Source: Paratrimastix pyriformis
Lineage: Eukaryota > Preaxostyla > Paratrimastigidae
Direction: 5' to 3'
Assembly (NCBI GenBank): GCA_027972325.1
Contig: JAPMOS010000018.1
Span: 496,001-560,000, forward strand
DNA: 64,000 bases
Under the pieces are notes generated by a model. It ran no database searches. It saw only the letters and a list, made by a program, of their open reading frames with translations, and was not told where the DNA came from. Shown piece by piece: positions 1 through 64,000 of this stretch (its first letter is position 1; each line of letters begins with the position of its first letter). The translations under genes and the position numbers were made by a program.

Positions 1-3000
1 TCCCGGGGAGTCTTTGAAAGACCGAAACGACCGTGCTGTCTTCGCCGCCATGAAGTGGTACGATGAGCACCTCTCCGAGCAGCCCCGCATCGCGGGCCGG
101 TGTAAGGGGGCCCTCTTCGGGATTCAGGGGCCGGCGCCCCGCACTGTTGTGCTGCTGACGGACGACGCGGTCACCCGGACCCGGGCCGCTCAGCGGGACC
201 TGGTCGCCTACTCCGGTCAGCTCCCTGCCCCCCCTGCCCCCGCCCCTGTCCATGCCCCCGCCCGCCCTGCCCCCGCCCTGCCCCCGCCCGTGCTGGGGAT
301 GCCTGTCGCTCCACTTGGCGCTGGGGGCTCAGCGTGGACCGGCTGGCGGGCGGGCGGGTGGTGGTGGTGGTTGTCTCGGCCTGGGCAGCCATCGCGTACG
401 CGCAGACGCGGTTCGCCGGGTGCGGGGAGGTGACCGACCTGGTGGTGGGGCCCGAGGAGGAGCCCACCGAGGCCGCGGGCCAGGCGCCCATGCAGCTCGA
501 GGGCGCCGCCCCCGAGACCACGGCCGTCCTGCCGCCCCACGTGCCCTTCCACTTCGAGAAGGTCCGCCCCCGCCCCTGCCGTCCCCCTCCTCCGCAGCCT
601 CCCCCTGCTGGATGTCATCCGTCGGCTGCCCCCTCGGTCGGCTCTGGTCCGTCTTGAAACCGATGCGACCCCCACCTGTCCCTCGCCCCCTCCGTCCATC
701 CGCCCATCGGCCGGGCAGCACCGCAAGCTGGCCGACCTGCAGGTCCTGGTGGGCCAGCGGAAGCTGTACCGGGGGCGGCTGATGATGACCCGGCACAACT
801 GCTACGAGGCCTACGTCAACGTGCCCACCCTGCGCAAGCCCATCATCATCCACGGGGTGGCCAACCTCAACCGGGCCCTCGACGGCGACACGGTGGCCGT
901 CCGGCTGCTGCCCACCGCCCAGTGGCGCCGGCCCTCGCCCTGCCTGGCCGAGTACGGATCGGGTCCGGCCCCCCCACACACCCGCTCCCCTGCCCTCCTG
1001 TCCCCGCGTCCCTGCGCCCCCTTCGGCCGCCGTGGATCTCCGCTCACCAGGCGTCCTGCTCCTCTCGCCATGCCCTGACCCCTGACCCCTGCCCCTTGCC
1101 CCCCTGCCCCTTGCCCCTGCCCTGCCCTGCCCTGCCCTGCCCCCTGCCGTGCCGTGCCGACTGGGCGGGGGCAGAGCAACCCGACCCGGACCTGCTCGAG
1201 GCCGACATGGCCGCCCTGACGGCCGCCGCCCAGGCGCCGCTCCCCGAGGAGATCGACGTCATCGCCGACCCGGCCCTGGCCGTGGCCCAGCCCGAGGGAG
1301 CCGAGGGCGAGCGGGCCCTGCCCGCGGCCCGGCTGGCCGAGATGGAGGTCCAGGAGGCCGTCGCCGCCTCGCGGGGCGCCGAGATCGAGGGCACCGCCCA
1401 GGAGCAGCGCAAGCCCCACCCCACGGGCCGCGTGGTGGGCATCATCAGGCGCGACCTCAGGACGTCCGCCACCCCCAGCCCATCCCCCCCGCCCCTCATG
1501 CCCATCCCGCCCCTGGGCACGCCCTCCCCCCCGATCCCCCTCATGCCCATGGGCACGCCCGGGCGTGCCCATCCCCCCCGCCCCTCATGCCCATCCCGCC
1601 CCCGGGCACGCCCTCCCCCCCGATCCCCCTCATTGGTGCTGACGGGTTTTGGGCCCCCGATGCGATCCGATCCGGTCCGGTCCGGTCCGGTCCGCTTGGG
1701 GCGCAGCTTCGCGGGGTCGGTCGAGGTGGACCCCAAGGCGCCCAGCCTGCCCGCGGGCCAGCTGCGGACGATGCTCTTCGTGCCGGTCAACGAGCGCATC
1801 CCCAAGATCGAGATCCGCACCTCGCAGCCCGAGCGCCTCGTCGGCCAGCGGGCCATCGTCGCCATCGACGGCTGGCTCGAGGCCTCCAGGTCCCGCGGCC
1901 CTGCATACCGCATACCCTGCATACCCTGCCTGCCCCCACACCCGCATACGGCGCCCCAGCCCCCTGCACACGCACTATCCCGCCGCAGCCATCCAGGCAC
2001 CCCGTCCCTCTGCCTGCCTCCTGCCCGGGCTCGTGGGGTGCCGCTCACGGACCGGTGGCGGCTGGCGGCTGGTGGCTGCATCCCCGGGGGGGTTGCACCT
2101 GCAGGTACCCGCACGGCCACGTGGTGCGGGTGATGGGGCCCACTGGGGCCATGGCCCCGGACCGGGACGCCGAGAAGGTCATCGAGGCCGACGTGCTGCT
2201 GCACGAGTACGGGGTCCCCCACGAGCCCTTCAGCCCGGCCGTCCTGGCGGGGGTGCCCGTCACCCCGTGGATCATCCCCGACTCGGAGCGCGAGCGGCGC
2301 CTCGACCTGACCGGCATCGACATCTGCTCCATCGACCCCCTCGGTCCGGCGCCCTCCCCCGCCCATCACTCCGCCCCTCCCCCGCCCCTCCGCCCCTCCC
2401 CGTGGCTGGGGCGCCCTGACCTAACACGGAGCCGGGCCCTGGCCCTCCCCCCGATAGGCTGCAAGGATATCGATGATGCCCTGCATGCCCGCATCCTGCC
2501 CAACGGCCTCGTCGAGACCGGCGTGCGTCCGTCTGCCGTCCCCTGCACCTCCTGCCATGCCTGCCTCCCTCATGCCTCCTTCCTGCCTTGGCCACACCAT
2601 GCGGTCCCCTCCCCCTCCCCTCCCCTCCCCCTCCCCTCCCCTCCCTCTCTGCGCTCGCGTCGGTTTGGGCCGGTTGGTTGGGGGTCCCACGCGGCGGCCG
2701 GGGCTGATTGCTGATGGTCGTCGCGGCGGGGGGCCCGTGCAGACATTGCCGATGTGGCCTACTTCGTGCGGCCCGACACGGCCATCGACGCGGAGGCCGC
2801 CAACCGGGGCAACACGACCTACCTGGTGGACCGGCGCTTCGACATGCTGCCCAAGCTGCTCACCGAGGACCTCTGCTCCCTCAAGGGCGGCGTCGAGCGG
2901 TTCGCGTTCAGCTGCCTCTGGGTCCGCCCCCTGCTCCCTCTGCCCATGCCCTCTGTCCATGCTCCCTCTGCCCATGCTCCCTCCGCCTCCCTGCCCGGCC

Positions 3001-5787
3001 CGGCTGACAGACCCGCTTCTGGACGACGACGGGGGGGCTTGGCACAGGAGATGGACCCGGCGCAGGACTACAAGATCGTCAAGACGACCTTCGGCCGGTC
3101 GATCATCCGCTCCCGGGGGGCGCTGCACTACGAGCAGGCCCAGATGATGATGCTCAAGGGCCGCGACCGGCTCTCGGACCAGGTGCGCCTCCTCAACAAG
3201 GTCGCCTGCGCCCTCAAGCGCCGCCGCATGCAGGTCCGCCACCCCCCCAGCCACTGCCACCACTGCCAGCCACCACTGCCAGCCACCACTGCCAGCCACC
3301 ACTGCCAGCCACCACTGCACAACCCCCAGCGCCCTCCTTCCCTTCCGCTTGGCCGCCGGCCGATCCGATCCGATGTGATGTGATGCGATGCGGTTCGGCT
3401 GGGCTGGGCTGGGCTGGGCTGGGCTGGGCTGGGCTGGGCTGGGCTGGGCTGGGCTGGGGTCTGAGGGCAGGGGGGTGCGCTGGTGCTCGCCTCGCCGGCG
3501 GTCAAGTTCGAGCTGGACAGCGAGACCCACGACCCGGCCGCGGTGGCCCAGTACCAGATGTTCGACACCAACTCGCTGGTGGAGGAGTTCATGCTCCTCG
3601 CCAACATCGCCGTCGCCGAGCGCATCTACCAGTCCTACCCCACATTCGCCCTGCTCCGGTCCGCCCAGCCCCCGCCCAGCCCCGCCCCCGCCCAGCCCCC
3701 TGGGGGCCCGTTTGGGGTGCTGTTTCTCACTTGGCGCATGTCTGCCCTGGCCTGCCCTGGCCTACCGGCTCGTCTGCCCCCCAGGCGGCACCCGCCGCCC
3801 CTGCCGAAGAGCTTCGAGTGGCTCGTGGCGACGGCCCGCGAGCTGGGCGTCAACATCGATGTCTCCTCCAACAAGGCCCTCAACGACTCCCTCGCCGCGG
3901 CCAAGGTCCCCGCCCGCCCACCCACCGCACCTCCTCATGCGCCCGCCCCGCCCCGGCCCGCCTTTTCGCCGGATGGTGGCCCCATGCGGCCCACCATGAA
4001 TGACACCTCGAACATCGGGGGGGATATGGCGCGCGCGGGGCACCCGGGCTGGGCTGGGCTGGGCTGGGCTGGGCTGGGCTGGGCTGGGCTGGGCTGGGCT
4101 GGGCTGGGCTGGGCTGGGCTGGGCTGGGCTGGGCGCTGGACAGATGGCCGGCAACGAGTACTTCCCGACGCACATCAAGATGCTGGCCACCCGGAGCATG
4201 GCGCTGGCCCTCTACTTCGCCTCGGGGGACTTCGAGTACCCCGAGTTCTACCACTACGGGCTGGCCTGCCCCATCTACACCCACTTCACCTCGCCCATCC
4301 GTCGGTATGCCGGTCCGCACCGCTGCTGCTCCCCCTGCCCCGTCCTCATGCTCCCCCTGCCCCGTCCTCATGCCGTTCTCGCGTCGCGACGGGTGATGGC
4401 GGGGCTGCCGGCTAGCGCAGATGTGGTCGTGCATCGGCTCCTGGCGGGCGCCATCGGGATTGACGACGTGCCGCCCTCGATCTGCGACCAGCAGCGCCTC
4501 CGCGACCTCTGCAAAGGCCCCCCACCCCCCCCCCCCCCCCCCGTGCTGTGCCGTGCCCCTCGACACCCCCTCGACACCCCTCGACACCCCCCTCGACACC
4601 CCCTCCCCCCTCGATGCCTCTGCCTCTCTCACCGAGCCATCGCCCCTGGCTGGCTGGCTGGCTGGCTGGGGTGGGCTGTGCGAACCTGTGCAGGCATCAA
4701 CAAGCGGCACAAGATGTCCCAGGACTGCGGCCGGGCGAGCAACCGGGTGCAGACGGTGATCTACCTGCAGCAGCAGGTGCTCTCGGCGGCCCGGCTGGCC
4801 TGTCAGAAGCGCACCGAGCTCGTCCAGGCGGGGCCCTGCCGCCCTCGGCCGGCCCCGCCACCGAGGAGCAGGAGGCCTTCCTGGTCGAGAAGGCCTACGT
4901 CAACCGCGTCTGGCGCAACGCCCTGGTGGTCTTCATCCCCGGTCCGCCACCCGGTGCCCCTGCACCCCACATCCCTGTCCCGTCCCTGCTGGCGCCCCCC
5001 CCCCCCCCCCCCCCCCCCCCGGGTCTCATCTCGGTTTTGCGTGGTGCGTGCGGCGGCGGCGGCCAGGTTTGGCCTGGAGGGGAACGTCTACGTGGGGCCC
5101 GCCGGCTCGCAGCACCACACGGAGCACCTGGTGGCCCTGGACGAGGACCGCCAGACGATCTGCTTCACCTCGGTGCACCCCGACCTGTACCTGCCCAGCC
5201 ACGGGCCCCACCCGGCCGCCGCCCCCCGGGCCGCCCTGGCCCCCTGGGACCCCGCCCAGCCGGCCCCGGCCCCGGTCCTGCCGGCCGGCAGCCACTACGA
5301 GGTGCGCCTCTTCGACGAGATCTTCGTCACGGTCCGGGTGCTGACCGGGCCCCAGTACCCCACGGCCCGCTTCGTGCTGGGGCTGCCCCGGTATGCCGAC
5401 CTGCGGACCCACCCCGACCTGGGGGCCATCGAGACGGCCGCCAAGAAGGAGCGCCGGGCCGTCGCCCAGGCGGTCAAGGCACCCGTCACCGCCGCCGCCG
5501 CCGGGTCGGGCTGGTGCCCCAGCACCCCCACCGAGGACGGCCCCTGGCTGCCGCCCCAGCCCGAGGACGGCGCCGCTCCGGCGGGCTTCGTCCCGGCCAC
5601 CCCCACGCCATCTCCCGCCGCCCCCTCCGTCCCCTCGCCGACTCCTGCCGCCGCGCCGACCACCCCACTGGCTGCCGCCGCCCCCCAGGAGGCTGACCGC
5701 GAGATGCCCCACAAGAAGGCCGCCGCCACGGCCGCCGCCACCACCCAGCAGCAAGGCAAGGGCAAGAAGAAGAGCAGGACCGAGTAA
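1..5787 (+). CDS. DIS3: DIS3/RRP44 exosome 3'-5' exoribonuclease, 5' partial
   Basis: Catalytic subunit of the RNA exosome, degrading RNA 3'-5' in nucleus and cytoplasm. The window opens inside the PIN endonuclease domain (RNDRAV..KWYDEHL). Cold-shock domains follow (about 391-1890), then the RNB domain with the metal-binding motif GCKDIDDALH (2458-2487), TSPIRRYAD across the 4312/4421 junction, and a C-terminal S1 domain (FGLEGNVYVG, from 5067). The tail is Pro/Ala-rich and ends in a Lys stretch. About 16 exons; well-supported ones are 2458-2526, 2743-2921, 3048-3233, 3471-3658, 3785-3905, 4144-4312, 4421-4516, 4694-4821, 4872-4941 and 5067-5787. Most donors read GTCCG. The intron at 4517 appears to start with GC, and that at 4822-4871 is only 50 bp. 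The phase across 4941/5067 is off by one base, see findings. Collinearity with animal DIS3 is strong along the whole length; only exon ends before 2400 are soft. Confidence 0.93.
3397..3457 (+). repeat. GGCTG pentamer tandem array in a DIS3 intron
   Basis: About 12 perfect GGGCT/GGCTG units inside the intron 3234-3470, just upstream of the CAG acceptor. The sense RNA is rich in GGG runs and could form G-quadruplexes. Confidence 0.95.
4046..4134 (+). repeat. Second GGCTG pentamer array in a DIS3 intron
   Basis: About 17 units of the same pentamer as at 3397, inside the intron 3906-4143. It ends nine bases before the acceptor CAG. The same pentamer recurs in a TPR intron near 16605-16635. Confidence 0.95.
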
Positions 5788-5860
5788 GAAGAGGAGAGAA
5801 GGGTTATTGGCGACAGAAGAAGGGGGTGACAGATGAAAAGGCCCTTGGTCCATTCGGGGA

Positions 5861-8800: not shown

Positions 8801-9088
8801 GGCGAAAAGGTTCGAGGACAAGAAGGAATCCAACGACAGACCGGGTTCCACTGCTTCGGCTTCGGTGCGCCGGTCGGTAACGGCCTGCGCTACCAAGGTC
8901 ACCCAGGAATCCCGATCCTGAACAAGAGAATGCAACTATATGTCAGAGGGCGAGAAACAGACCGGCAAACTGGGGAATGTGAGGACAAAGCGAACGATGG
9001 TTGGTGGAACGGTGGACACCGCGAGGTGAGTGGTTGCGTCACATTGACCCTGGAATCCAAGGACCACACACTGCGTCGACTCTGCGGG

Positions 9089-9122
<34 letters not shown>

Positions 9123-10536: not shown

Positions 10537-10589
10537 GGAGACCAAGACAAATCTCAAGAAGACAGGTCTGGTTTGATGGTCAAATCTTT
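10537..10589. promoter_or_regulatory. Divergent start region RhoGEF / TPR
   Basis: Short AT-richer stretch between the RhoGEF ATG (10536, minus) and the first recognisable TPR coding bases. The TPR start codon is not certain. An ATG at 10510 opens a short plus-strand reading frame that would overlap the RhoGEF start and need a roughly 40-base intron to join TPR. No TATA box stands out. Confidence 0.45.
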
Positions 10590-13500: not shown

Positions 13501-16500
13501 CGAGCTCGACGAGCTGCGCCTCACCCGCAAGCGCCAGCAGGAGCTCGTCCGCCCCCCCCCGTGGCCCTCTGCCCCCGGATCGCCCCCCCCCCCCCCCCCG
13601 GATCGCCCGCCCGCCCGGACGCCTGTGCCCAAGTCGTGACCACCCTGTGGCTTGGCGGCGGTGGGTGGTGGGCAGGTGGGGGCCATCATCCAGCAGCGGG
13701 ACATGTACCGGGCCCTGGCGGCCTCGGCCAGCCCCGCGGGCGAGTCGGCGCTGAAGGGCCTCCTCGACCAGGCCAAGAGCGGCGCCCTGGGGGCCGCCCC
13801 CGGCACCTCCGGCCCAGCGGCGCCCTCGGGGGCCGCCCTCGACGGGGAGGCCGTCCGGACCCTCGAGAGCAAGCTCAAGGCCGCGGTCCGCCCCGTGCTG
13901 CCCCTGCCCGCACCGCCTTGCCCCTCGAGCCCCCGGTCCGGATGGCGGGGCTGACCCGACCTGTGGCGCGGCCCTGCCCCTCCCCCCGTCTGGTAGGACG
14001 CGGCCCTGACCGAGTGCCGGGCGGGGCTGCGGGAGCGCGAGGAGAAGGTGCGCCAGCTGGAGGAGGCCGTCCGGGACATCGACAGGCAGCACCGCGAGAC
14101 GTGCCGCCTCACCCAGGTCCGCCACTGCCACTGCCACTGCCACTGCCACTGCCACTGCCACTGCCACTGCCACTGCCACTGCCACTGCCACTGCCACTGC
14201 CACTGCCACTGCCACTGCCACTGCCACTGCCACTGCCACTGCCACTGCCACTGCCACAGCCACGCCTCGCCTCGGCCCTCGGATGCGCGGCCCGCTCACC
14301 CCGTTTCCTCCTGGGGATGGCGGCGGGGTGCAGAACGAGGTGGATCGGCTCCACTCGGCCCTGGCCGACGCCGAGACGAACTCGGCCCGCACACGCCACG
14401 AGCGCGACAGCTGCCTCGGTCAGTCCGGCTCCCCTGGTGACGGCCTCACTCCCACGTCCTCCCGTCCTCCCGTCCTCCCGTCCTCCCGTCCTCCCGTCCT
14501 CCCGTCCTCCCGTCCTCCCGTCACCCTTCCTGCGGCCCTGACTCTCACTCCCCGGGGCGGGATCCATGCTGCAGAGCGACACCAGCTGCTGCTGGAGAGC
14601 GTCAAGCACCGCCAGGCAGAGGTCGACGCCCTCGTCGAGAAGACCAAGGTCCCCGGCCCCCGCCCACCCAGGGCTTGCCGGCCTCCACCCACCCACCCAC
14701 CCACCCCGTCCCTCTGCCGCTTGCCCCGTGGCCGCCGTCCCTCGCTCACGCCGTCCTGTCCGGCCGCCCGTCTGCTCGTTGGGCCGCCGCTGCCGTTGGG
14801 CCGGTGGGGCAGGCGCACACGGGGCTGATCGAGCACCAGCGGCTGCTCGCCCAGGCCAACGAGGAGCTCCTGGCCGCCCGCTCGGAGGCCGCCGCCGCCC
14901 AGCAGCGCATCGCGGCCCTCGACGCCGAGCGCGCCATGGCCAAGGTCCCCCCCGCCGCCCCACCCTGTCCCTCCCCATTCCCCTCCCGCCTGCGCCCCGC
15001 CGAGCCGCCTTCACCCGGCCGGTGCCCCTTGGGATTGGGTTGGGCTGGGCTGGGTCGGGTCGGCTGGGGCTGGGCGGTCATGCAGCGGAGCCAGGAGAAC
15101 CTGCAGGCCGAGATGGAGCAGCTGCGCCGGGAGCGGCGCCAGCAGGAGGACCTCGCCCGCACGGTGGAGGCCCTGAGGGCCGGCCTCGACTCCAACCAGG
15201 CCGCCACCGAGGAGCGCCACCAGCAGGAGGTCGAGCGGCTCAACCGCCAGTGGTCCGCGCCCCGCCGACTCCCCCCGCCACATCCGACTCCCCCCGCCAC
15301 ATCCGACTCCCCCCCGCCATCCCACCGCATCGCCGCCCGCCCCCTTGGCGAACCGCCCCTTGGCTGGCCCCCTGCTGACCATGCTGCCCGCCATGGCCGC
15401 TGTCCCCTTCGGCGGCCCCCTCTGCGCGGCGGTCAGGATCACGGCCCGCCAGCAGCTGGACCAGGAGCGGGCCCGGGCCCAGGAGGCCGAGGTGCGCTGC
15501 GCGGGTGAGGTGCAGCGGCTTCGCGAGCGGACCCTCACCGTCGAGCGGGACCTGGCCGCCGCCCAGGCCGCAGCCACGGCCGCCCAGACGGCCCTCGCCC
15601 GGGAGCAGGCCGAGTCAACCCGCCTCACGACGGCCCTCAAGCAGGTCGCACAGGCTCCCTCCCCGCAGCCACGCCAGCCACTCCCAGCCACTCCCACTCC
15701 CATCCACTCCCATCCACTCCCATCCGCCCGGCACGCACCCCCAACTGACACGCCTGTGCCTTACTGGGGGCGGGCAGGCCGAGGAGGAGGCCGCCCAGTT
15801 GCGGACGCGGCTGCGGGCCGACGAGGCGGAGAAGCGGCTGGAGGAGCTCCGCCAGGAGATGCAGGCTGAGATCGCAGACCTCACAAGGAAGAACCGTCCG
15901 CACCGCCCGCCCGCCCGCCCGCCCGCCCGCCCGCCCGCCCGCCCGCCCGCCCGCCCGCCCGCCCGCCCGCCCGCCCGCCCGCCCGCCCGCCCGCCCGCCC
16001 GCCCGCCCGCCCGCCCGCCCGCCCGCCCGCCCGCCCGCCCGGCACAGCAGCAGACCAGCACGACCTCACCGTTGCCGGGTGCCGTTTTGTGTCTGCAGAG
16101 GACCTCAAGGCCACGGCAGACCAGAGCGCCCTCGAGCTGGCCACCACCAAGGAGTGCCTCGCACAGGTCCGCCACCACCACCACCACCACCTCCTCCTCC
16201 TCCTCCTCCTCCTCCTCCTCCTCCTCCTCCTCCTCCTCCTCCTCCTCCTCCTCCTCCTCCCCCAGCTGCAGCATGGGCTCACCGCCCTTCCTCGCTCCCC
16301 CGTCCCCTCCGCCCCCCCGCCGCGCCCCCCGCCCACCGTGCAGGCCGAGGCGCACAAGGCCGAGCTGACGGCCATGACGGAGGCCCACGCCCAGGCCCTG
16401 GAGGAGACCCAGAAGGCGGCGGCCCTCTTCCGCGAGGCCGCCCAGGGCCGCGAGGCTGCCCTGCGGGCCCAGTGCGCCCTGGTCCGCGTCCCCCCACCGC

Positions 16501-23126: not shown

Positions 23127-24164
23127 TTAAGCGACAATGGGAACGGTAGCCATGGAGGCCTCACCGCACTGGTTCTTCTTGTCCTTAACCATCCAGATGT
23201 AGCCCTTCTGGCCCCACGACGCGCCCCTGAGGAGAAAAAAGGTCATTGAGCATTTAAAGATCATGTCAAGTGAGGAGGCAGACCAGGAGTTCTTAACGAT
23301 CCAGTAGTTCTTGCCGGACTTGGAGTCAGTGCCATAGCCAACAAGGGTCACACCGTGGTCCAGAGAGTAGGCAGAGCAAGCCTTCTCGTCATAGACACCA
23401 GTGCTGTAGAACTGGAAGCTCATGTGGGAGGCATCAATGGCAATCGAGACGGGGCCACGAGTGGCGACGGCGTCGGCCAGATCGGTCTCAGAGCCCTCAG
23501 TGACGTTGTACATGCCGGAGACGGTGGCACCAATGCAGGAGGTGGAGTACTTGCACTTGCCGTCGACCGCCTTGTAGGGGTAGCAGGCCTCAGTGTCGAT
23601 ACCCTTGTTGTCAATGACGTACTGGATACCCTCAGTCATCAGGCCGCCGTTGCAGCCCTCGTTGCCGTAGGAGGTAGCGCAGTCAACCAGCTGCTGCTCA
23701 GAGAGGGAGACGAGCTGGTTCTTGGCAATGGCCCAGGCACCCTCAATACCGGCAACAGTGGAGAAGGCCCAGCAGGAACCGCACTGGCCCTGGTCCTTGA
23801 CGGGGGTGACGGCGTTCTTGTCGCGCCAGTCAACAGCGGCGGGAGCCTTAACGCCAGAGTTGACGTAGGGCTTGGCCTGAACGTGCATGCCCTCCATGGG
23901 GGTGGAGAGGTACAGGGAGCGGAACTCCTCGTGGGACAGGTCACCGAACTGGTTCATGGCGAGGACGACACCGTTGTTCTGGGCGTTGAACTTCTCGATG
24001 TAGTCGAGGTTGTTCTTGAAGACATTGAAGCGGTAGACGGACTCCTCGTTGGAGTAGGCCTTGTTGTGCTGGGTGGACCACTTCTGCCAGAGGAACTGGT
24101 ACTCAGACTCAGAGTGGAAGGCAAGAGCAATGCCGAGGAGGGCGAACGCGAGGAAGGCCTTCAT
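23127..24164 (-). CDS. Cathepsin L-like papain-family cysteine protease
   Basis: Secreted or lysosomal endopeptidase (peptidase family C1A). The ATG at 24164 is followed by a signal peptide ([16 protein letters not shown]) and an I29/ERFNIN propeptide ([29 protein letters not shown]). The mature enzyme starts near [17 protein letters not shown]. Catalytic Cys lies in QCGSCWAF (Cys codon at 23771-23773), His in [11 protein letters not shown], Asn in YWIVKNSW, and the GCNGG motif is present. A 57-bp intron (23283-23227) splits the Trp codon of [11 protein letters not shown]. It is a multiple of three with no stop, so intron retention would insert 19 residues. Removing it gives the usual family spacing and a 326-residue product. 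GC content is moderate and the gene is otherwise intronless. Confidence 0.95.
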
Positions 24165-43758: not shown

Positions 43759-43795
<37 letters not shown>

Positions 43796-45396: not shown

Positions 45397-48300
45397 ATGG
45401 TGAAAGCGCCCATTAAAGTCTATGTGCGGACGCGCCCAACTGTGGATTTTATGGCAGATGTGATGACCCTCAATCAAGAGAAGCAGGTTCGTTTTTGTCC
45501 AACATTTTTTTTATTGAACTCTTCTCCGGCCACCTCCGCGCATAGGCGATAGACGTGCGTGTTAAAAAGCCAGAGGACGCAGGGATTGTGAATAACCAGC
45601 AGACAGAGTGGTCTGCCGCTCCTCTCATCATCTGCCGGCATTCTCCCCCCGCAGGAGTTTCAAATTCGATGGGATTCTCCATAACGCGACACAAGATGCC
45701 GTATTTCAACAGGTTGGCCCTCTCACTTTTCCGTCCCCTTTATCCGAGCACTGGCTGTAGTGCGCTCGCGAGATCGTCGACAGTGTTTTGCAGGGGTACA
45801 ATGGCACCCTTTTTGCCTACGGCCAGACGGGAGCGGGAAAGACTTTTACGATGGTTTGTATCTCCGCCCCTCGACGCCTCGACCCCCGCCGCTTTGTCTG
45901 CCGTAGACGGGCGCCGTGGACAACTATCAGTACCGGGGCATCATCCCCCGGACGATCGCCTACATCTTCCGCGAGATCCAGAACAGGCCAGACTTTGCGA
46001 TCACGGTGCGGGTCTCGTACCTGGAGATCTACAACGAGCAGATGGTGGACCTCCTCGAGTCGGCCATCCCCGCCCCGGGCACCCCCGCCCCGGCCCCCGT
46101 GGCCACGGCCGAGGGCTCCCCTCGCACGGACGACGTCCCCGGGGGTGAGCTGCTCATCCAAGAGGATGCCACTGGTCCGTCCGCCCTCAGGGGCTACCGG
46201 CGGGCCGGTGTGGTTGGCGGTTGGCGATTGGCGGTTGGGTCGGGGGCGGCGGTCGTGGCGCCTTCTTCTCTGGCGCCCATTCCAGCCCCCCCCTCCCCCC
46301 CGGGTTTGCCACAGGAGCCACCAACGTGCGGGGGCTCTACCGCCCGGTGGCCAACTCGGAGGAGGAGGCCCTGAACCTGCTCTTCGAGGGCGAGACCAAC
46401 CGGGCCATCGCCGAGCACAAGCTCAACAAGGCCTCCTCCAGGTCGCCCATGCCGCCCATGCCGCCCACCAGCACGGGTGCGCTTCCCTCCGTCCCCCTTC
46501 ATGCCCTTCATGCCCTTCATGCCCTTCATGGGTCCTTCCCACCACACGACGCGGCGGCACGGGGGGGCAGGTCGCACTGCGTGTTCACGATCTACCTGGA
46601 CATGCAGTCCCGAGTGGAGAGCGGCGGGGCCACCACCTGCGGCAAGCTGCACATCGTCGACCTGGCCGGCAGCGAGCGGGTCTCCAAGACCCAAACCGAG
46701 GGCCAGCTCCTCCGCGAGGCCATGTGTCCGCCCCCCAGCGGCCCCGCCCCGCTCCCACACCCCTGGCCGGCTTCGCGGTGCGGCTGTTGCTGTTGCCGGG
46801 GCATGAATGACGGTGCCGGATCTGCACGGGTATGCGGGTTGGGGGCGGGTTGGCGGGGGTTGTGCAGACATCAACAAGTCGCTGACCTTCCTGGAGCAGG
46901 TCATCCTGGCCCTGGCCGACAGGCACCGGGAGCACATCCCCTACCGCCAGTGCAAGCTGACCAACGTGCTGAAGGACTCCCTGGGGGGCAACTGCCGCAC
47001 GACCATGATCGCCAACATCACCCGTCCGCTCCCCAGCCCCCACAGCCCCCACAGCCCCCCTCCACCGCCCCGCCTTGGCCCATCCCGACGCTTCATCTCG
47101 TGCTGCTCTGTACCGCGGGGGCTCGGCTCGGCTCGGTGGGCGGGCAGCCGAGCGGCGGCACCTGGAGGAGACCATCGGGACGCTCCGCTTCGCGACCCGG
47201 GTGATGCACGTCAGCAACGAGGCCGTCGTCAACGTGCAGGAGGACCCCAGGGTCCGCCGTGCCCCCCGTGGCCCACATGCCCTCCGGCCACCGCTGCCCG
47301 CCGCCATGGATGCCCCTGTCCGCTGACGCCTGACGAGCTGCTTCTTGGGGGGGCTGGCGGGGGGGCTGGCGGGGCGCAGACGCTGGTCAAGCGGTACGAG
47401 CGGGAGATCAAGGAGCTCAAGCAGGAGCTCGCCATGCACGACTCCCTCGCGGGCCGCTCCCGGGTGCCCTACGACCCCTACACCAGGTCCCTCCCTCCCT
47501 CCGTCCCCATCGACCATCCTCCCCCCTCCCCATCATCGCCCCTCCCCTTCTTTGATGTGCCCGCACCGCATGATCCCAATGACGCCTTCGCGCCACTCGC
47601 GGGATCTCCGCCTGACCCGCATCCCGCACCCCCACCGCAGTGAGCAGCGCCACGAGCTGCAGCAGCAGGTGCGCCGCTACCTCGCGGGCGAGCTGGAGGA
47701 GCTTGATGTCTGCCCTTGCTGCCCCCCCCTCCCCCTCCCTCCCTCCCTCCCTCCCCTCCTCCCCATGTCCCATCCCCCTGCCCCCCATCTCCCGCTCCAC
47801 ACACGAAGACGGCGGGCTCGCTCATCGCCTCCGCCGCCTCATCCTCACCCACCCACTCACCCCACCCACCCACACCCTCACACCCATCCCCCCGGCAGTT
47901 CCCCAATCTGCGCCACGTGCGCGAGCTGATGGTGGCCTTCCGAGCGGTGGTGCGCCAGATGCGGGCCGACGTGGAGCACGACCTGCGCCAGCAGGGCCTG
48001 GGCGGGGCACCCGAGGGCGACGGAGCCGCGGCCGCCCGGGCCGCCCAGGGCAAGGTCCGCCTCGCAGGGCCTGCTGCCGCCGAGAGGGCCCCCAGTGGGG
48101 TGCGGCCCCCCGCTGACCTGACGGGTTCCTCATTCCTTACTCTGCAGGCCGCCGCGAAGCCCTCGACGGCCGGCCCCAAGGACGGCATGGTGGGCGAGAT
48201 CGACCCCACAGGCGGGTTCAGCCTGGGCGTGGTCCGCACGCCCCCCGCCCACCCGGCCTCGGTCTTTGATGGATGGGCCTCTTTGATGGATGGGCCTCTT

Positions 48301-50051
48301 TGATGGATAGGCCTCTCCTTCTGTCACCCGTGTCGTGGCCTGGGGGTGGCCCATCATCATCTCCGCCCCCCGCTGACCGGCTCCCCTCAGGCGCCCAGCG
48401 ACGCCCGTCCGGATGCCCTCAGCATGACCGCCGCTGCCGCTGCCGCTGCCGCTGCCGCTGCCGCTGCAGGGCTCCCGGTCTGCCCCCAGGTTCCCCACGC
48501 CCCCATGCACATCATCCGCTGATGCTGAATGCGATCGTCTCCGGGTTCGTGTGGGCTGGCGGTCGTTCCTCGCAGCTCCCTGAGGGCGCCCCCGTGGAGC
48601 GGGCCGCCATGACGGCCCCCGGCCCATCCGCCGATGTCCGTCCATGCCTGGTGCCCTCGCCTGCCTCCTCTCCCCCCCCCCCCCCCCCCCCCCCCCGTCG
48701 CGGTCCGGCCGCCCCTTTGGGGCACAAATCAAGGCCGGCGTTCCTGGGCGTGGGGGGCGTCTCGTCGGGTCAGGTGCCGCCCCGGGAGGCGGCCTTCGAG
48801 ACCTTCAAACAGGCCCAGGGCGCCGACACCCAGCGCAGCCTGGCCGAAAACAAGGGTCCGCGCCCGCGCCCCCGCCCCCGCCCTCCCCGCTCGTGACTGG
48901 TCCCTGGGGGGTCGTCTCCAACCCCCGCCTTGCTCCCGTTGCCCCCGCGCCCGGGCTGCTTGCAGGCCAGCTGGCCGAGAAGCGGACCCGGGCCAAGGCC
49001 CTGGCGGAGGCAGTCAACCAGTCCAAGGGCACCATCGACGCCCTCAAGCAGGCCCTCGACGACAAGCGGGCCCGCCTCAAGGCCCAGCAGGGTCCGCCTG
49101 CCCCCACCGGCCTCGTGGGGGACTCCTGGCCACCTTGGGCGCCCCGTCGGTGGTCTTCATGGGCGCGGGGTCTCTCGGGCGGGGGCGGGAGCAGCCGCGG
49201 CGGCGGCCATGCAGGCGGCCGGGACGGATGCCGACGAGGACGTCACCGACCAGGAGCTCTTCGACATGCTCCGCCGGCTGGCAGACGCCAAGACCGCCTA
49301 CAAGCAGGCATACCAAGTCCGCCCCCCGGCTCCCCTGCCTCGGCCACGCACCCTTCATTCCGCCCACCGCCCTTCGGACCTAACGCCACGCCCTGGGGCG
49401 GCGGGCTGGGCCCATGCAGGATCTGAAGAACGTCAAGTCGGAGATCGAGTACATCCAGCGGCTGGTCGACCAGTGCAAGCGCAAGCTGCTCATGGACTTC
49501 GACCAGTGGTCCGTCGTCCCGCCTCCTGCTGCTCTTCCCCCAGCCACAATGGCAACCAGGGCCATGGCCCCCCAAGGAGGCGCCACGATACGAGGATCTG
49601 GTCGCCGCCCTATACGGAATCTTATCACGGGCTACTGGCCAAATTGGATAAGGCACCTGACTACGGATCAGGAGACTGCAGGTTCGAGTCCTGCGTAGCT
49701 CGTCCTAATTTTTCTCCGGGCCCCTTTGTTGTCTGTTGTGGTGTTGCAGGTACGCCAGCCTTTCCGGCCAGGCGCCCCCAGAGCCGACCACCGCCCGCTC
49801 CCGGGTCTGCCAGCCCTCCATCCCCGGGCGCCTCATCTCCCCCCCCTCCCCTCCCCTTTCGATCGCAGGGTCTGCCGCCCCAGGGGCAGCCGCAGGGGCC
49901 GGAGGACGGACTGGACCCGGGGGAGCAGTTCGAGCAGCTGGAGATGGCCCGCCTGGCGGCCGAGGACCCCGACGCGTGCGCCTTCTACCAGGCCCGCAAG
50001 GCCCTCCGGGCCAGGAAAGCCGCGGCCCCATCGCCCGCCCGTCCCAGGTGA
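45397..50051 (+). CDS. KIF9: KIF9, flagellar kinesin-9 motor
   Basis: Microtubule motor of the axonemal central pair in other eukaryotes. Exon 1 (45397-45486) encodes [19 protein letters not shown]. Motor motifs follow: [17 protein letters not shown]-loop [11 protein letters not shown] (about 45821), [41 protein letters not shown], switch [42 protein letters not shown]. Kinesin-9-specific stretches come next: [92 protein letters not shown]. The C-terminal exon [29 protein letters not shown] ends at the stop 50049-50051. A GCTGCC repeat (48428-48468) encodes Ala. About 18 introns; the one after FDQW contains a tRNA gene. Collinearity with animal KIF9 is essentially complete. Confidence 0.95.
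49629..49702 (+). tRNA. tRNA-Arg(ACG) within a KIF9 intron
   Basis: Full cloverleaf. The acceptor stem GGGCTAC pairs with GTAGCTC (one G-T pair). The D arm reads GCC...GGC, the anticodon stem is CCTGA/TCAGG with loop CTACGGA (anticodon ACG), and the T arm is GCAGG/CCTGC with TTCGAGT. Discriminator base is G, no CCA encoded, no intron. Internal pol III promoters are the A box (TGGCCAAATTGG) and B box (GGTTCGAGTCC). A T5 run at 49708-49712 is a plausible pol III terminator. It lies on the same strand as KIF9, inside the intron between the FDQW and YASLSGQ exons. Confidence 0.96.
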
Positions 50052-50657: not shown

Positions 50658-52889
<2,232 letters not shown>

Positions 52890-56759: not shown

Positions 56760-56829
56760 GCAAAAGAAGGCCCTGGTGCGGCTGGACCCAGGTCGGATTC
56801 GACCAGAGCACGCAAACCAAAACCAAGCC
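56760..56829. promoter_or_regulatory. Divergent promoter region UTP5 / NSUN2
   Basis: Seventy bases between opposite start codons, with a run of CAAACCAAAACC just before the NSUN2 ATG. The shared control region fits coordinated expression of two RNA-maturation genes. Confidence 0.55.
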
Positions 56830-59800
56830 ATGCCGCGGACCAAGAAGGCAGCTTTCCACCGTGGTCGCCAGCCCAAACCTAAGAGTGATGATCAACCTCA
56901 GCAACGCACCGAAGAAGAAGGCGGGGAAAAGCGGCAGCAGCAGGTTGGAGAAAAGTGGAAGTCCTATAAGTTTGAGGACCTGCCGAAAGAGCGCGTTCGG
57001 GCTTTCAGTGCGTTCTACAAGGTTCGGTGGCTAATCTTCTCACATTTGATGAATTTTCCCTCCCTCTCAAAGCCTCTCGTCCCTGAAGCCGAATGGGATT
57101 GCTTCCTGCGCACCATGGCCACCCCGCTGCCCAGTACTTTCCGGATCACCGAATCGGGGTCCCAAACGGAACGGGTCTGCGCTCTTCCTCCACAGGAACA
57201 AGGTCCTCACCCCCGCCTCCTCCTCCACCTCCGCCTCCGCCTCCGCCTCCTCCGCCCTCCGCCCACAGACCCGCGCCGAGATTGAGACCCGCTTCGCCAA
57301 TCAGCCTCCTGTGGTCATCGACGGGAAGGAGTACTCGCCGGTGCAGCCGCTGCCCTGGTTCCCCAACCGGCTGGCCTGGGCGACCACCATCAGCCGGCCC
57401 ATGCTGCGCAAGTGCCCCCAGCTGCGGGCCTTCCACGAGTGGCTCAGCAACGCCACCGCGGCGGGGCAGGTTTCCCGCCAGGAGAGCGTCAGCATGATCC
57501 CGCCCATGCTGCTGGACGTGCGCCCCGGGCAGCGCGTCCTGGACATGTGCGCCGCCCCCGGCAGCAAGACCGCCCAGCTCATCGAGAAGGTCCTGCCCAA
57601 CAACGACTTCGGTCCGCCGCCCACACGACAAGCCATACACGTCCCACACGTCCCACACGTCCCACACGTCCCACACGTCCCACACGTCACACGTCCCACA
57701 CGTCCCACACCCACACGTCCCACACGTCCCGCTCACCCCTCTGGGGCTGACCGCGCGGGTGTGCATGTACTTTTTGGGCAGCCGGCAGCAACGGGTGCGT
57801 CATCGGGAACGACTCGGACCTGCGCCGGTGCCACACGCTCGTCCACCAGGTGCAGCGGCTGCGGTGCCCCAACGTGGTCATCACCAACCACATGGCCCAG
57901 TGCTTCCCCTCCGTCTACGTCACCATCGACGGCAAGAAGGGTCCGCCCCGGCCCCGGCCCCGGCCCGCTCTGCCCTCCCTCCGTTGCCGCATCAGGCCCC
58001 CTCACGGTGATGGTGGCTGTGCGTATGCTTGGTTGGGGTGGGCCCGGGGGGGGGGGGGGGGCGGATTCTGCAGAGCAACTCTACTACGACCGGATCCTGT
58101 GTGACGTGCCCTGCAGCGGTGACGGGACCCTCCGCAAGGCCCCCGACGCCTGGTGGACCTGGTCGCCCCTGCCCTCGGTGGGCCTGCACCCCATCCAGTG
58201 CCAGATCGCCCAGCGGGGCGCCCGCCTGCTGGCCCCCGGCGGCCGCATGGTCCGCCGCGCTGCCCTACCCCTGCCCCTGCCATCCCTGCCATCCCTGTCA
58301 TCGCCTCTTCCTGTGTTCGCCTCCTTGCTGCCTTTCCATCCCGCCTGGTTGTCTGACGCGGGTCACGATGGCTGGGGGGCTGGGGCAGGTCTACTCGACG
58401 TGCACCCTGAGCCCCTTCGAGGACGAGGCCGTCGTGGCGACCATCCTCCGCAACTGCCGTCCGTCCCCCCTCCCACCCCCCCTCAGGCGTACGGGTGCCC
58501 CTCGCCCGCACCCCTTCGTCGAGGCCTCACAGCGGCCTTTCTTCCTTGGGCCGATGTTGTTGGGTCTGGGGGTGGCCAGCCTACCTGTCGCTCGTGGACT
58601 GCTCGGCCGAGCTGCCCAACCTGCGCCGCTGCCCTGGGCTGGCCACCTGGCCCGTCCGCGAGCCCGTGGGGGTCTACAGCTCCGAGCGGGCCAAGGAGCG
58701 TGCCCAGGAGCGCCGCGCCCAGGCCGCCGCCAACGCCGCCAAGCAGGCCGCACGGAAGGCCGCCAAGGAGGCCGAGAAGGCCGGCGCGCCCGCACCCGCA
58801 CCCGCACCCGAGGCGACCCCCGTCCCGGCCCCGGCTGAGGAAGCCACTGCCGCCGCCGCCGCTGCTGCTGCGGCCGCGATCCCGGCCACCCCCGAGGAGG
58901 CGCCCCTGCTGGCCTCGCCGGCCCAGATCCCCCTGGGCAGCAAGCTGCGGCCCTCGCACTTCCCCCCCACCGCGGAAGGTCCGCCCCGCTGCCTGCTTCC
59001 CCTCGGCCAGCCGCCCCTCCCCATGCCCGGGCCATGGCCCTGACGTCCCGACGTCTCCGCTCTTGGCTCCCTCGGGGGCCCGGGGCACCCGGGTCAGAGG
59101 CGAGCTGGATGCACCTGGAGCGGTGCATGCGGGTCTACCCGCACCTGCAGGACACGGGCGGCTTCTTCATCGCCGTCTTCGCCAAGGCCCTCGAGGTCGT
59201 CCCCGAGCGGGCCGCCCCCGAGGCAGAGGCCGCCGAGGAGGGTCTGCCCCCCCGGCTCTGCCCCGCCCCCGGTGGTCGGCATTGCTGACTGTTCCGCTGC
59301 GGTGCCATCGCCCGCCAGATGAGGACAAGGCCGGGGCCGCCCAGGCCGACGTGGCCGAGGGGACGGCCGAGGCAGCCCCCAGGCGCAACCGGCCCGGCCG
59401 GGGGCACCGCCAGCGCCAACGCCAGGCCCACGATGCCATCCAGGCGGCCCGGCTGCACCCCAACAAGCGCTCCCGGGCCGAGGGCGAGGAGGAGCCCGCG
59501 GACGAGGCCCCCGAGGAGGCCCCCGAGGAGGGCGAGGGCGCCGAGGAGGAGGACGCGTCGGAGGCCTCGGGCCCCGAGGAGGAGAAGACCCCCGAGCCCG
59601 CGCCGTCCCCCGCCGAGCCCGCCCCCGAGGGCAGCCCCGCCCCTGCCTCGGTCCCGAGCGCCCCCGCGACCACCACCGATGCCGCCGCCACGGCCACGGC
59701 CCCGGCTGCCGCCCCCACGGCCGCCTCGAAGTACGATTTCTTCGTGCCCATCGCCGAGGGCCACCCGGGCCTGGCGGCCATCCGCAGCCACTACGGCATC

Positions 59801-60564: not shown

Positions 60565-60652
60565 CCATCGGGGCGGTGACCGTTCTAACGTCTTTTCCGC
60601 GACCCGCGCCTCCCATTTCTCCCTTTTACAACGAAGGTTTTGTTCTTCATGA

Positions 60653-62378
60653 TCACAGAAGTGACTGATCGACATCGTACTCGCCCGACGGTTGCTGTGA
60701 GGATTGAGGATGGTGAGGTGAGATGATGAGACACTGTTTTGGTTCGAGACCTGAGATGGCGCGATGCACTGAGATGTGGGGTACGTGCCACAATCGGGCA
60801 TGGGCATCGTACTGCTGAGGTATTGGCCGCACTGCATGACGAAGCGCTGGCAGAGGCTCTGGCAAGGAGGCAGTGGGACGTCGTTCATGACGCGGGGAAA
60901 TCCGTCCAAGCACATGAAAGCCTGGGCCACGTTGTAGCAATCACGTTGCGATTGACGAGATCGCCGGGCAGCAGCGAGACACATGATGATGTGGTGGACG
61001 ATCTGCTGTTGAGATTCCACCAAACAAACGGGGTACTGGACGAAACGGCACACTGGAACGCGACTCACCCGAGCGACAGTCCCCGGCTTACCCAAGTATG
61101 TGCAAGTGCCTGGGGACGGCGGGGTCGGAGGGACGGGGGTGGGCTGAGGAGTTGGCGGCACCGGAGTGGGGCCGGGAGTGGGAGGAACCGGGGTCGGTCC
61201 GGGGGTCGGGGGTGCCACCGGGAAAGTGACTTCCCAGACGTCCTGCTCGATCCCGCAGTCGTTAGAGCCTTGGACGATCCGGAAGTAGCCGCTGGGGGGG
61301 GGGGGGGGGGGGGGGGGGGTCGCGAGTAGAGTGAGCATCACAGGCGTTTGTAAACCGAGAGGAGACCTCTCGCCCCAGGTCGGCCCCCAGCTATTCTGCG
61401 CAATCCAATAAGGAGTGGATCCCTCGGTCCCATAACCGATGAGTTTGATGGCATGCCCACCGAGGACACTGCCACTTTTGTGTTTGTAGACTCCTCCTTT
61501 GTACTGTTCGAAGTCTCCGTAGACAGTGTAGGCGGCTGTGAAAGAACTTCTGAGTCGGGAGGCATACGGGGGCACGGGCCTTGAACCGATCCGCCCGTCG
61601 AAATGGACCGTTTTATGGCATCCACGCTGGAGAGACGGGCATAGGAAACAGGCTTGTACTTGGGAATCGCGGCGCCATTGTCGCATGTCTTGGGGCATGT
61701 TCCATCGCGAGGGACATACTGGGGGGGAGATGACACCACGGACAAGGACGCGATGCCGGAGACCTTGACACAGTCGGCTGTAGTGATCCCATTCTTGGTG
61801 ATCCAATCGAGAGAGTTTTGTAAGTATCCTCCCTGGCATCCTACAAGCAAGATGATTTGGAATGAAGGCCGTGCAGACCCGAGTTGCAGCTTCGGGCGGC
61901 AATGCATGATTTGTCACAGTTCAGCTCGTCTGGTGTTGCTGGTACAATTCGTGCAGAAAAGGCAACAGACAGCCAGCACTTCCCATGACATTGGCTCCTC
62001 CACTGGTGCAGAGCCTGTCAGCCACCATGCCCGCAGCAGATTGGGCCCAGCAAGAGCCTAAAAGTGCTGAGTCGGCAGCCCACATTTTCTCAGACCACAA
62101 GATCCCTGATCTACAACGTTGATGAGCGACTTGCACTGAGGATACACCTTTCGAGCATCATAAGAGGTGGGGATGGGATCATTGGTGTCAAAATCTGCCT
62201 CATCTTTGGCGTATTGTCGACGTAAGTGCTCGGGAGTCGGGGCCGTTCCGAAACACCATTCTGGATGATTGGGCATGCATCCAGAGTAATTGGCAGCCCG
62301 ATTGCTTGCACCGAAGATAAAGTTGTGGTCGAGCCGTCCGAAAACCACCGCCGTACAGAGGAGCAGGAGAAGGAGCAT
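60653..62378 (-). CDS. Cathepsin B-like cysteine protease with Pro-rich linker and Frizzled-like Cys-rich domain
   Basis: Secreted papain-family protease. The ATG at 62378 begins a signal peptide (MLLLLLLCTAVVFG). A short pro-region follows, then PTSYDARKVYPQCKSLINVVDQGSCG, with the catalytic CGSCWA joined across a short intron. SAAGMVADRLC is the cathepsin B-type helix; GCQGGYLQNSLDWI precedes C-PKTCDNG. The His is in GGHAIKLIGYG, the Asn in YWIAQNSWGPTWGE, and the core ends DCGIEQDVWEVTFPV. A linker of PTPGPTPVPPTP repeats (about 61135-61210) leads to a C-terminal domain with CRFVQYPVC, HHIIMCLAA, DCYNVAQAFMCLDGFPR and PLPPCQSLCQRFVMQCGQYL. That is the spacing of a Frizzled/CRD fold, with one Cys lacking. 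The final intron joins IAPSQ to QPSGEYDVDQSLL and the stop at 60653. One intron carries a 23-base C run on the sense strand (61296-61318). Confidence 0.82.
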
Positions 62379-62481
62379 GGACGGGTGTGTTTTTTTTCTC
62401 TTCAGGGGACTTAAACAGCTGTCGATGATTCTCCGGCACCATGGATCTCACACAGGGGGTGATCGGCTATATTGATTGGCC
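62379..62481. promoter_or_regulatory. Divergent promoter region protease / carboxypeptidase
   Basis: About 100 bp between opposite ATGs of two secreted peptidase genes. A GGCTATATTGATTGG stretch just before the carboxypeptidase ATG contains a TATA-like core and an inverted CCAAT, and a T9 run lies near 62390. Confidence 0.5.
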
Positions 62482-64000
62482 ATGCTTTTTCGGCTCGCGT
62501 TGTTGTTCTCGATTTTGCATTTTGCAAACTGTCAAGACGACTTTCGTATTGCACCATCTGATGGATCCGTGAGGGCCGACAAGTCCCATGTCATGCACCC
62601 GCCCGCATCCTTTGGACCGGTCACCTCTCTTCCTCTCTATGGGCCGATCCGCGGGGTCCAGCACAGTGGTTACGTTCAAGTGAATGCCCAGTTTAATTCC
62701 AATATTTTCTACTGGATGGTTGAGGCCAGCGAAAGTGCTCCAGCCAACGCGCCATTACTTCTGTGGTTCCAAGGAGGTCCCGGGTCGTCCTCTATCGATG
62801 TGGGTTTCTTTTTCGAGCACGGTCCATTCCTATTTGACACGAAGAATGGCCGTCCGGTGGACAATCCCACCTCGTGGCATCATCTGGCCCATGTGCTTTA
62901 TATTGATCAGCCTGCCGGAACGGGTTTCTCGTACACCGACTCGAACGATGGATTCGCCAAAACCCTTGACGATGTCGCCAATGACATTCACACATTCATC
63001 ACGCTCTTCCTTAAGCGGTCTGTCCTCTTCTGCACCCAGCCCAGGGGGCGGGCTCACTTCCTCCAGGTACCCGCAGTACGCCAAATTGGACCTGTACGTG
63101 TGCGGCGAGTCGTACGGCGGAAAATATGTGCCCGCAATCAGTGCTCGCTTAGGTCAGGATGCGTCCCTCAACCTGAAGGGTCTGTCCTCTCCCCACGGCG
63201 GCAGGGGACCTCCTCTGAACCTTCCTCGCAGGGCTCTGCATCGCCGATGGCTGGTCGCACCCCCCGTCCCAATTGCCACCATACACCACCGTTGGTCCGC
63301 CCCCCTCCTCCATCCCCTTCGGAACCTAAGATGCTTGCCGTGTTTTCTGGGACGGGCAGCGCTCATCAACGGGCTGATCGACGAGAACACGAAAAAGTCA
63401 TACGACAAGGTCCGGCATGCCGGGGTTCCGCCCGCATACTGACCCAGGTTACACCCTCCACCGCCCACCCCTCCATTGGCGGCAGGTGTACGACCAGTGC
63501 CTGACCCTGGTCGAGCAAGGGAAGTGGGTCTGCTGCTCCCGATGGCGCCCTTGTTCTCACCCCACCCACCCTGCACGCAGCACGACGCCGCCCTCCTGTG
63601 CGATCCGACCTTCTGGTCGCTGCGCAATGCCACCGGCAGCGTCAACCCGTACGACATCCGCGCCTATGGCAATTACGACTTCGACCCCAGTCTGCCTTAC
63701 CCCCCCCCCCCCCCCCCCCCCGTGGTCACCCGTGGCTCTTTCTTGGCACCCAGTTTCTCACGACCCCCACGCCGCCGCCCCGATGGCTGACCAGTCGACC
63801 GTTACCTGAAGCGGAACGACACGATGGCCGCCATCCACGCCAACCACCCCTTCGGGAGCACCGCCGAGCAGGTGGGCCAGGCCATCCATGACGACTTCTG
63901 CCAGTCGGTGCGGCCGCTGCTGGCGTCCCTCGTCGAGCGCTACCAGGTGCTGGTCTACCAGGGCCAGGTCTGACACCCCGCCCCTGGCCCAACAACATTG
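62482..64000 (+). CDS. Serine carboxypeptidase (family S10), 3' partial
   Basis: Secreted or lysosomal exopeptidase. The ATG at 62482 starts a signal peptide (MLFRLALLFSILHFANC). Then SGYVQVN...NIFYWMVEASESAPANAPLLLWFQGGPGSSS, NPTSWHHLAHVLYIDQPAGTGFSYT, and the nucleophile motif LYVCGESYGGKYVP (about 63092-63131). GLCIADGW, ALINGLIDENTKKSYDK, VYDQCLTLVEQGKW, DAALLCD and RYLKRNDTMAAIHANHPFG follow, and the last visible exon ends YQVLVYQGQ at about 63972, just before a GTCTG donor. The catalytic Asp and His lie beyond the window. Exons: 62482-63017, 63067-63179, 63232-63294, 63360-63409, 63486-63527, 63581-63688, about 63802-63972. Donors are GTCTG or GTCCG throughout. Exon 1 is AT-richer than the rest. 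Confidence 0.93.

Follow-up and report, generated by a model that had tools for sequence, protein, structure and literature searches.

In Paratrimastix pyriformis, a free-living metamonad of Preaxostyla, both sides of the nearly invariant recognition pair formed by the U1 small nuclear RNA (snRNA) and the 5' splice site (donor) appear to have changed together. We analysed a window of 64,000 nucleotides (contig JAPMOS010000018.1, positions 496,001 to 560,000 of the forward strand) and searched the assembly to which it belongs (GCA_027972325.1; 56.06 Mb, 495 contigs); splice junctions and U1 expression are here inferred from sequence alone. The donors are predicted to read (G)/GT-C-Y-G-Y, the slash marking the exon-intron boundary, and not GTAAG or GTGAG, and their co-change with U1 would be strong at donor position +3 and weak at +4. 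In our opinion, these are very probably ordinary U2-type introns, whose 5' splice-site signal has been altered jointly with the U1 5' arm.

Donors of the window introns

The consensus was established on 28 introns of five window genes (10 in DIS3, 10 in KIF9, 4 in NSUN2, 3 in MAPK and 1 in cathepsin L), whose junctions are supported by homology (Table 1). Of the 28 donors, 27 have T at +2 (one has C) and 27 have C at +3 (one has T). Position +4 shows 21 C, 4 T, 2 G and 1 A, and position +5 shows 23 G and 5 C. By their ends (GT in 27/28, GC in 1/28) these introns are of the major GT...AG type, and we take their donors to be unlike the U12 motif. When the 27 GT donors are compared with intron base composition, C at +3 (26/27) has a P of ~2e-8 and G at +5 (23/27) a P of ~1e-9; when they are compared with all GT sites of the window, P is ~3e-11 at +3, 2e-5 at +4 and 4e-7 at +5.

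A preliminary description of the window had proposed a GT-pyrimidine-pyrimidine-G consensus. It is confirmed by these donors (C at +3 in 27/28, C or T at +4 in 25/28, G at +5 in 23/28), and the predominance of GTRAG that would have spoken against it is not found, neither GTRAG (GTAAG or GTGAG) nor GTATG occurring among the 28. The two pyrimidines are nevertheless not equivalent: C at +3 is a strong rule, whereas a pyrimidine at +4 is common yet weakly constrained. Donors of the proposed kind were read again in the window sequence at all seven coordinates that had been named. In DIS3, 2922, 3234, 3659 and 4313 read GTCCGC as announced, but 2527 reads GTCCGT and not GTCCGC; 63018 and 63180, in a carboxypeptidase gene, both read GTCTGT, as had been said.

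Ab initio prediction of introns

The consensus was also obtained with a two-strand gene model, trained by Viterbi re-estimation from a flat starting donor model, DIS3 and cathepsin having served as seeds for its models of coding and intron composition. The training DNA (232,299 bases) comprised the window, five 10-kb stretches and 38 loci of ~3 kb; two loci were added, for a total of 238,716 bases, in the analysis of 260 introns and in that with +3 to +8 held out (see below). The 260 introns are those, out of 475 predicted, with both flanking exons of at least 60 bases, a length of at least 40 and a CAG or TAG end. In a run without the window, 174 of 319 introns were kept (flanking exons of at least 45 bases, length of at least 30).

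With GT imposed, the model learned GT-C-C/T-G from its flat donor start. In the 260 introns, +3 is C in 90.4%, +5 is G in 86.5% and -1 is G in 73.1%, and +4 is C in 61.5%, T in 19.6%, G in 14.6% and A in 4.2%, purines being reduced at this position. The window-free model gave 88 GTCCG, 36 GTCTG and 9 GTCGG donors among its 174 introns, and no GTAAG, GTGAG or GTATG. When no donor dinucleotide was imposed (the acceptor AG being imposed), the same signal was found, with frequencies of 0.94 for G at +1, 0.90 for T at +2, 0.92 for C at +3, 0.61 for C and 0.26 for T at +4, and 0.85 for G at +5. The GTTCG donors of the preliminary description are rare (3/260 predicted introns). Its branch-point-like motifs are enriched upstream of acceptors: when intron tails are compared with single-letter shuffles, CTGAC is present in 29/210 (mean of 8.3 in shuffles) and CTCAC in 48/210 (mean of 17.5), while CTAAC is present in 2/210 (mean of 5.0).

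U1 snRNA genes with a changed 5' arm

The preliminary description had suggested that U1 may carry compensatory changes, to be looked for in its first 11 bases. In the assembly, at least eight loci (L001-L008) match the U1 covariance model RF00003 over its full length (model positions 1-166, E from 3.7e-13 to 2.0e-10); this number is a lower bound because scoring covered 41 of the 992 first-look candidates. The covariance alignments were inspected for four of the eight loci. All eight start with AUACAGACCUUG, the Rfam consensus starting with AUACUUACCUG, and differ from this consensus at position 5 (U to A), position 6 (U to G) and position 11 (G to U). The 5' arm is ACAGACC in 8/8 detected genes and not ACUUACC, and the mature U1 RNA would begin with AUACAGACC. 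Donor +3 lies opposite U1 position 6, and +4 opposite position 5, so that both donor positions that depart from the usual consensus have a change facing them.

No second U1, with either G5G6 or canonical UU, was found in three genome pattern searches. The first one gave 18 matches, with a U1 body in exactly the same eight loci, and the further ones gave 8 matches, all of them the eight U1, and 10 matches, namely the same eight plus two without a U1 body. A CCCATAA element lies upstream of 8/8 U1, 8/8 U2, 7/7 U5 and 4/4 U6 loci (L001-L012, L031-L045), and a TCAAG box lies closer to the gene in 6 U1, 5 U2 and 2 U5 loci. CCCATAA, accompanied by TCAAG in many U1 and U2 loci, is a candidate snRNA promoter, which would support the expression of the U1 genes and the placement of their 5' ends. 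The eight loci are thus predicted to be divergent U1 genes by their full-length match, their common upstream element and their uniqueness, and not by a score cut-off.

As to the partners of U1, stem-loop II of the eight genes presumably lacks the usual U1A loop sequence. U1-C was not found in the genome search, which would miss a short domain interrupted by an intron; the sole zf-U1 match was rejected as U1-C, since it is WBP4-like.

Pairing of U1 with donor positions +3 and +4

The flanking pairs would be kept, U1 C9, C8, A7 and C4 pairing with G at -1, G at +1, T at +2 and G at +5, respectively. G6 would pair with C at +3, or wobble with the rare T, and would let U1 choose donors with which canonical U1 would pair poorly. 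Duplex energies were calculated on the best duplex, register free, for all 16 combinations of letters at U1 positions 5-6. With the 260 predicted donors, the real U1 (AG) ranks second out of 16, with a mean of -6.68 kcal/mol, and UU on the same backbone ranks last (-3.05). The best-matched donor would be AAG/GTCTGTAT, whose energy with the real U1 (-14.6) is on a par with that of CAG/GTAAGTAT with canonical U1 (-14.0).

Several results weigh against a full correspondence between the two partners. A G5G6 U1 would pair far better with the predicted donors (first out of 16, -10.2 vs -6.68 for the real AG), and with 12 DIS3 donors the real AG ranks just fourth (-6.18; UU being 15th, -2.81). The majority donor, GTCCG, mispairs with U1 A5. 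A pyrimidine at +4, present in 24/27 GT donors of the certified set, is just mildly above intron composition (P ~0.003). When +3 to +8 are barred from scoring, C (0.494) and T (0.228) at +4 stay near their background (0.424 and 0.211), and no selection for T over C at +4 is seen in 210 predicted introns. Also against the proposed joint change, the window-free model placed exactly just 7/13 DIS3 donors, and the best U1 match reaches 60.2 bits, below the Rfam gathering threshold of 69.5.

One possibility is that the pyrimidines at +3 and +4 are a by-product of GC- and C-rich introns, GT and G at +5 being enough and U1 being irrelevant. At +4, such an explanation is in agreement not only with the near-background held-out frequencies but also with the C:T ratio, which is that of local composition (51 T observed and 61.7 expected in 210 introns). 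At +3, on the contrary, C is far above composition in the certified donors, as seen above, and T is avoided: among 241 predicted introns, 6 T are observed while local composition predicts 70.8. In the most T-rich quartile of predicted introns (n=65), +3 is still C in 58, T in 4 and G in 3, which points away from composition. With +3 to +8 barred from scoring, C at +3 has a frequency of 0.685 vs 0.424 for intron C, and G at +5 of 0.596 vs 0.215. Moreover, all eight U1 genes found are altered precisely at the position that faces +3. A purely compositional origin is thus very unlikely.

Duplex energies and composition tests together point to a firm co-change of G6 and C at +3, and to an A5 that fits the minority GTCTG donors and would at most disfavour purines at +4. 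The compensation anticipated by the preliminary description is supported at +3, where a G at position 6, normally U, pairs with C in 8/8 genes found, and in part at +4, where A5, normally U, matches the minority T but mismatches the majority C. A5 would pair with T in GTCTG and tolerate C in GTCCG, purines at +4 being somewhat avoided. The GTCCG form probably arose as GC-biased mutation turned T at +4 to C, which would be tolerable through the strong pair at +3.

The GTCCG majority despite A5, and the interchangeability of C and T at +4, would also be explained if A5 were edited to inosine, or otherwise modified, and paired with both C and U like the wobble base of transfer RNA (tRNA). RNA editing would then broaden what U1 can decode, in the manner of tRNAs at their wobble position. 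Weak selection at +4 accounts for the same data more simply, and such a modification seems very improbable. We give as little credit to its strongest form, in which the whole donor code would be rewritten via U1, G6 fixing C at +3 and an inosine or modified A5 reading C and U.

U6, U5, U2 and other spliceosomal components

In the joint change of U1 and donors that we favour, the site would pass, after the departure of U1, to unchanged U6 and U5. The ACAGAGA box of U6 is indeed unchanged in 4/4 loci, the U5 loop CGCCUUUUACUA is canonical in 7/7 loci and the branch-binding site of U2, GUAGUAUCUGUUC, is canonical in the 8/8 loci inspected. The preliminary description had alternatively considered that U6 and U5 might dominate donor choice, the changes of U1 being then neutral. 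The conserved G at +5 and at -1 of the 260 predicted introns would suit U6 and U5. However, neither the ACAGAGA box nor the U5 loop is altered toward C at +3 or a pyrimidine at +4, and G6 restores the pair at +3. As the contact sites of U6, U5 and U2 are unchanged, this alternative is without sequence support and appears highly unlikely. The U11 snRNA gave no match in the genome, nor did it in control genomes.

In Saccharomycotina, the preference at +4 tracks METTL16 and SNRNP27K (PMC10581693). In P. pyriformis, a METTL16-like gene with CMCNPPFF and a SNRNP27K-like exon with RQYMNRKG are both present (loci L052 and L053), although +4 is seldom A. The loss of these genes as a cause of +4 not being A was rejected, because both kinds of gene are present, which also sets P. 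pyriformis apart from the Saccharomycotina loss system. The rarity of A at +4 in spite of the kept METTL16-like and SNRNP27K-like genes and U6 box is as expected if A5 of U1 disfavours A at +4. P. pyriformis would thereby separate two roles of +4 that are usually confounded, facing U1 position 5 and facing the methylated A of U6.

Support for individual junctions

DIS3 was rebuilt by hand and its 13 junctions were compared with five homologues, gap-free flanking residues being required. Ten junctions are gap-free in at least 3/5 homologues over these residues; the introns at 963, 1464 and 2922 were excluded from the certified set because they are gap-free in fewer. A further intron, at 4942, lies outside the comparison because the frame is doubtful there. 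P0001, a database protein encoded on the same contig and probably the deposited gene model, shares the DIS3 joins at 11/13 introns. It disagrees at the last two because it omits one exon (4421-4516), and it also reads through the donor at 4942. At the single GC-AG intron, at 4517, the GC donor is either genuine or due to an error in the assembly. A DIS3 exon also shows what looks like a frame slip of one base around 4827-4835 (+ strand).

For KIF9, the junctions of the gene model were checked against six homologues; ten are gap-free in 6/6, and 8 of 18 predicted junctions were excluded. The organism's own KIF9 protein is not among the 120 matches listed. The gene model appears to err at two places at least, as it sets an exon where a tRNA gene lies and reads through a probable intron near 48055. 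This tRNA-Arg(ACG) gene (49628-49705, + strand) is located inside a KIF9 intron of the same strand, which by eye runs from GTCCGT at 49509 to a point before 49750.

The NSUN2 and MAPK junctions were read by eye on alignments with PDB proteins, in the aligned parts only. In NSUN2, one of the five junctions of the aligned part (residue 269.3) was excluded for a one-residue gap. In MAPK, residues 7.0, at the alignment edge, and 25.0 were excluded, and the donor of the model at 25.0, GTGCGA, is probably wrong. The product of the cysteine proteinase (cathepsin L) gene (23130-24164, - strand) matches the deposited Cysteine proteinase 3 of P. pyriformis with full identity over 326 residues.

The introns could, finally, be misplaced, low-complexity stretches being taken for introns or the assembly being faulty. 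Tandem repeats and homopolymers are numerous in the introns, and the frame slip near 4830 in DIS3 would fit a faulty assembly. Nevertheless, several homologues align across the junctions, in conserved protein, with no gap, and database proteins concur with the cathepsin intron and with 11/13 introns of DIS3, so that a general misplacement is extremely unlikely. Several of the window introns consist mostly of minisatellites (GGGCT, CCACTG, CCGC and others), for instance at 3393-3460, 4050-4135, 14117-14260 and 15901-16040.

Table 1. Donors read in the window, with the support for each junction. Homologue counts give the comparisons that are gap-free at the junction; the 28 are the certified introns.
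Gene	Feature	Position	Strand	Support
DIS3	donor GTCAGC (exception, A at +4)	216..221	+	5/5 homologues; P0001 concurs
DIS3	donor GTCCGC	562..567	+	3/5 homologues; P0001 concurs
DIS3	donor GTCCGG	963..968	+	2/5 homologues, outside the 28; P0001 concurs
DIS3	donor GTCCGC	1464..1469	+	2/5 homologues, outside the 28; P0001 concurs
DIS3	donor GTCCCG	1890..1895	+	5/5 homologues; P0001 concurs
DIS3	donor GTCCGG	2344..2349	+	5/5 homologues; P0001 concurs
DIS3	donor GTCCGT	2527..2532	+	5/5 homologues; P0001 concurs
DIS3	donor GTCCGC	2922..2927	+	0/5 homologues, outside the 28; P0001 concurs
DIS3	donor GTCCGC	3234..3239	+	5/5 homologues; P0001 concurs
DIS3	donor GTCCGC	3659..3664	+	5/5 homologues; P0001 concurs
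DIS3	donor GTCCCC	3906..3911	+	5/5 homologues; P0001 concurs
DIS3	donor GTCCGC	4313..4318	+	5/5 homologues; P0001 omits next exon
DIS3	GC-AG donor GCCCCC	4517..4522	+	5/5 homologues; P0001 without preceding exon; at C homopolymer
KIF9	donor GTTTGT (sole T at +3)	45854..45859	+	6/6 homologues, over short flank in model
KIF9	donor GTCCGT	46175..46180	+	6/6 homologues
KIF9	donor GTCGCC	46442..46447	+	6/6 homologues
KIF9	donor GTCCGC	46726..46731	+	6/6 homologues
KIF9	donor GTCCGC	47024..47029	+	6/6 homologues
KIF9	donor GTCCGC	47252..47257	+	6/6 homologues
KIF9	donor GTCCCT	47487..47492	+	6/6 homologues
KIF9	donor GTCTGC	47708..47713	+	6/6 homologues
KIF9	donor GTCCGC	48856..48861	+	6/6 homologues
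KIF9	donor GTCCGC	49317..49322	+	6/6 homologues
NSUN2	donor GTCTGC	57175..57180	+	gap-free vs PDB NSUN2; similarity weak there
NSUN2	donor GTCCGC	57612..57617	+	gap-free vs PDB NSUN2
NSUN2	donor GTCCGC	57941..57946	+	gap-free vs PDB NSUN2
NSUN2	donor GTCCGC	58250..58255	+	gap-free vs PDB NSUN2
MAPK	donor GTCCGT	51920..51925	-	gap-free vs PDB MAPK
MAPK	donor GTCGGT	51566..51571	-	gap-free vs PDB MAPK
MAPK	donor GTCCGC	51334..51339	-	gap-free vs PDB MAPK
Cathepsin L	intron, donor GTCTGC at 23278-23283	23227..23283	-	joined protein identical to deposited P0121, 326 aa
Carboxypeptidase	donor GTCTGT	63018..63023	+	sequence read only
Carboxypeptidase	donor GTCTGT	63180..63185	+	sequence read only

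Significance and comparison with known systems

The 5' arm of U1 is regarded as almost universal. If the donors and all detected U1 copies have moved together, this would be the splicing counterpart of a codon reassignment, and would show that a change of U1 and donors is survivable. The routes to ask about are several U1 copies as a mixed intermediate, GC-biased mutation and wobble at +3. In practice, genomes of this kind will defeat gene finders built on GTRAG. The preliminary description knew of no lineage with this consensus, and we have likewise found no report of the consensus or of this U1 in the openly licensed literature. The P. pyriformis genome has been described as 56.6 Mb in 633 scaffolds with 60.9% GC, with gene models that used intron hints from RNA sequencing, and the main text of that description, where the word intron occurs twice, gives no donor consensus in the passages concerned (PMC10703272).

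Compared with canonical U1 (AUACUUACCUG with CAG/GTRAGT), the proposed pairing has the same register and the same pairs at -1, +1, +2 and +5, and the genes match the model over their full length; the difference lies in positions 5-6, AG and not UU, and in donors with C at +3 and C or T at +4. A study of U1 candidates from 227 Saccharomycotina and 9 outgroup genomes found ACUUACC without variation, and names a change of the position 5 pseudouridine to A as a hypothetical compensation for U at +4 (PMC10581693). The U1 of Giardia retains ACUUAC, with a U-U pair (PMC3510501), and so does that of the ciliate Stentor, ACUUACCU (PMC9505925).

The GTATG donors of Saccharomyces, Giardia and the oxymonad Streblomastix resemble the minority P. 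pyriformis donors by U at +4 and G at +5, but have A at +3. As Streblomastix belongs to Preaxostyla and its donors are GTATG (PMC1501061), U at +4 may be old in this group and A5 may have arisen to match it. The change of U1 position 6 from U to G, with that of donor +3 from A to C, would have come later, in the Paratrimastix line. An oxymonad U1 reading AUACAUACC would mean that A5 came first and G6 later, while one reading AUACUUACC would put both changes in the Paratrimastix line.

Other lineages also have an unusual recognition of the 5' splice site. Entamoeba (PMC13292270), Amoebophrya (PMC7789003) and Cyanidioschyzon (PMC11732430) are reported to be without U1 snRNA, whereas Paratrimastix has at least eight U1 genes. 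Natural departures in U1 or in donors are found in the diplonemid S. specki and in Fritillaria. The former has an alternative U1 with a 5' C-run besides a classical U1 (PMC12621601), which is thus kept, while our searches found no canonical copy in Paratrimastix. The latter, whose introns are mostly non-GT/AG, has two U1 versions with identical 5' ends, and its authors invoke N6-methyladenosine (m6A) (PMC13326754); U1 5' ends are thus retained in Fritillaria and changed in Paratrimastix. A further parallel is offered by laboratory-made compensatory mutants of U1 (Zhuang and Weiner, 1986, as cited in PMC11732430), in which a base change in U1 restores the use of an altered donor; in Paratrimastix, however, the change appears to be natural and genome-wide.

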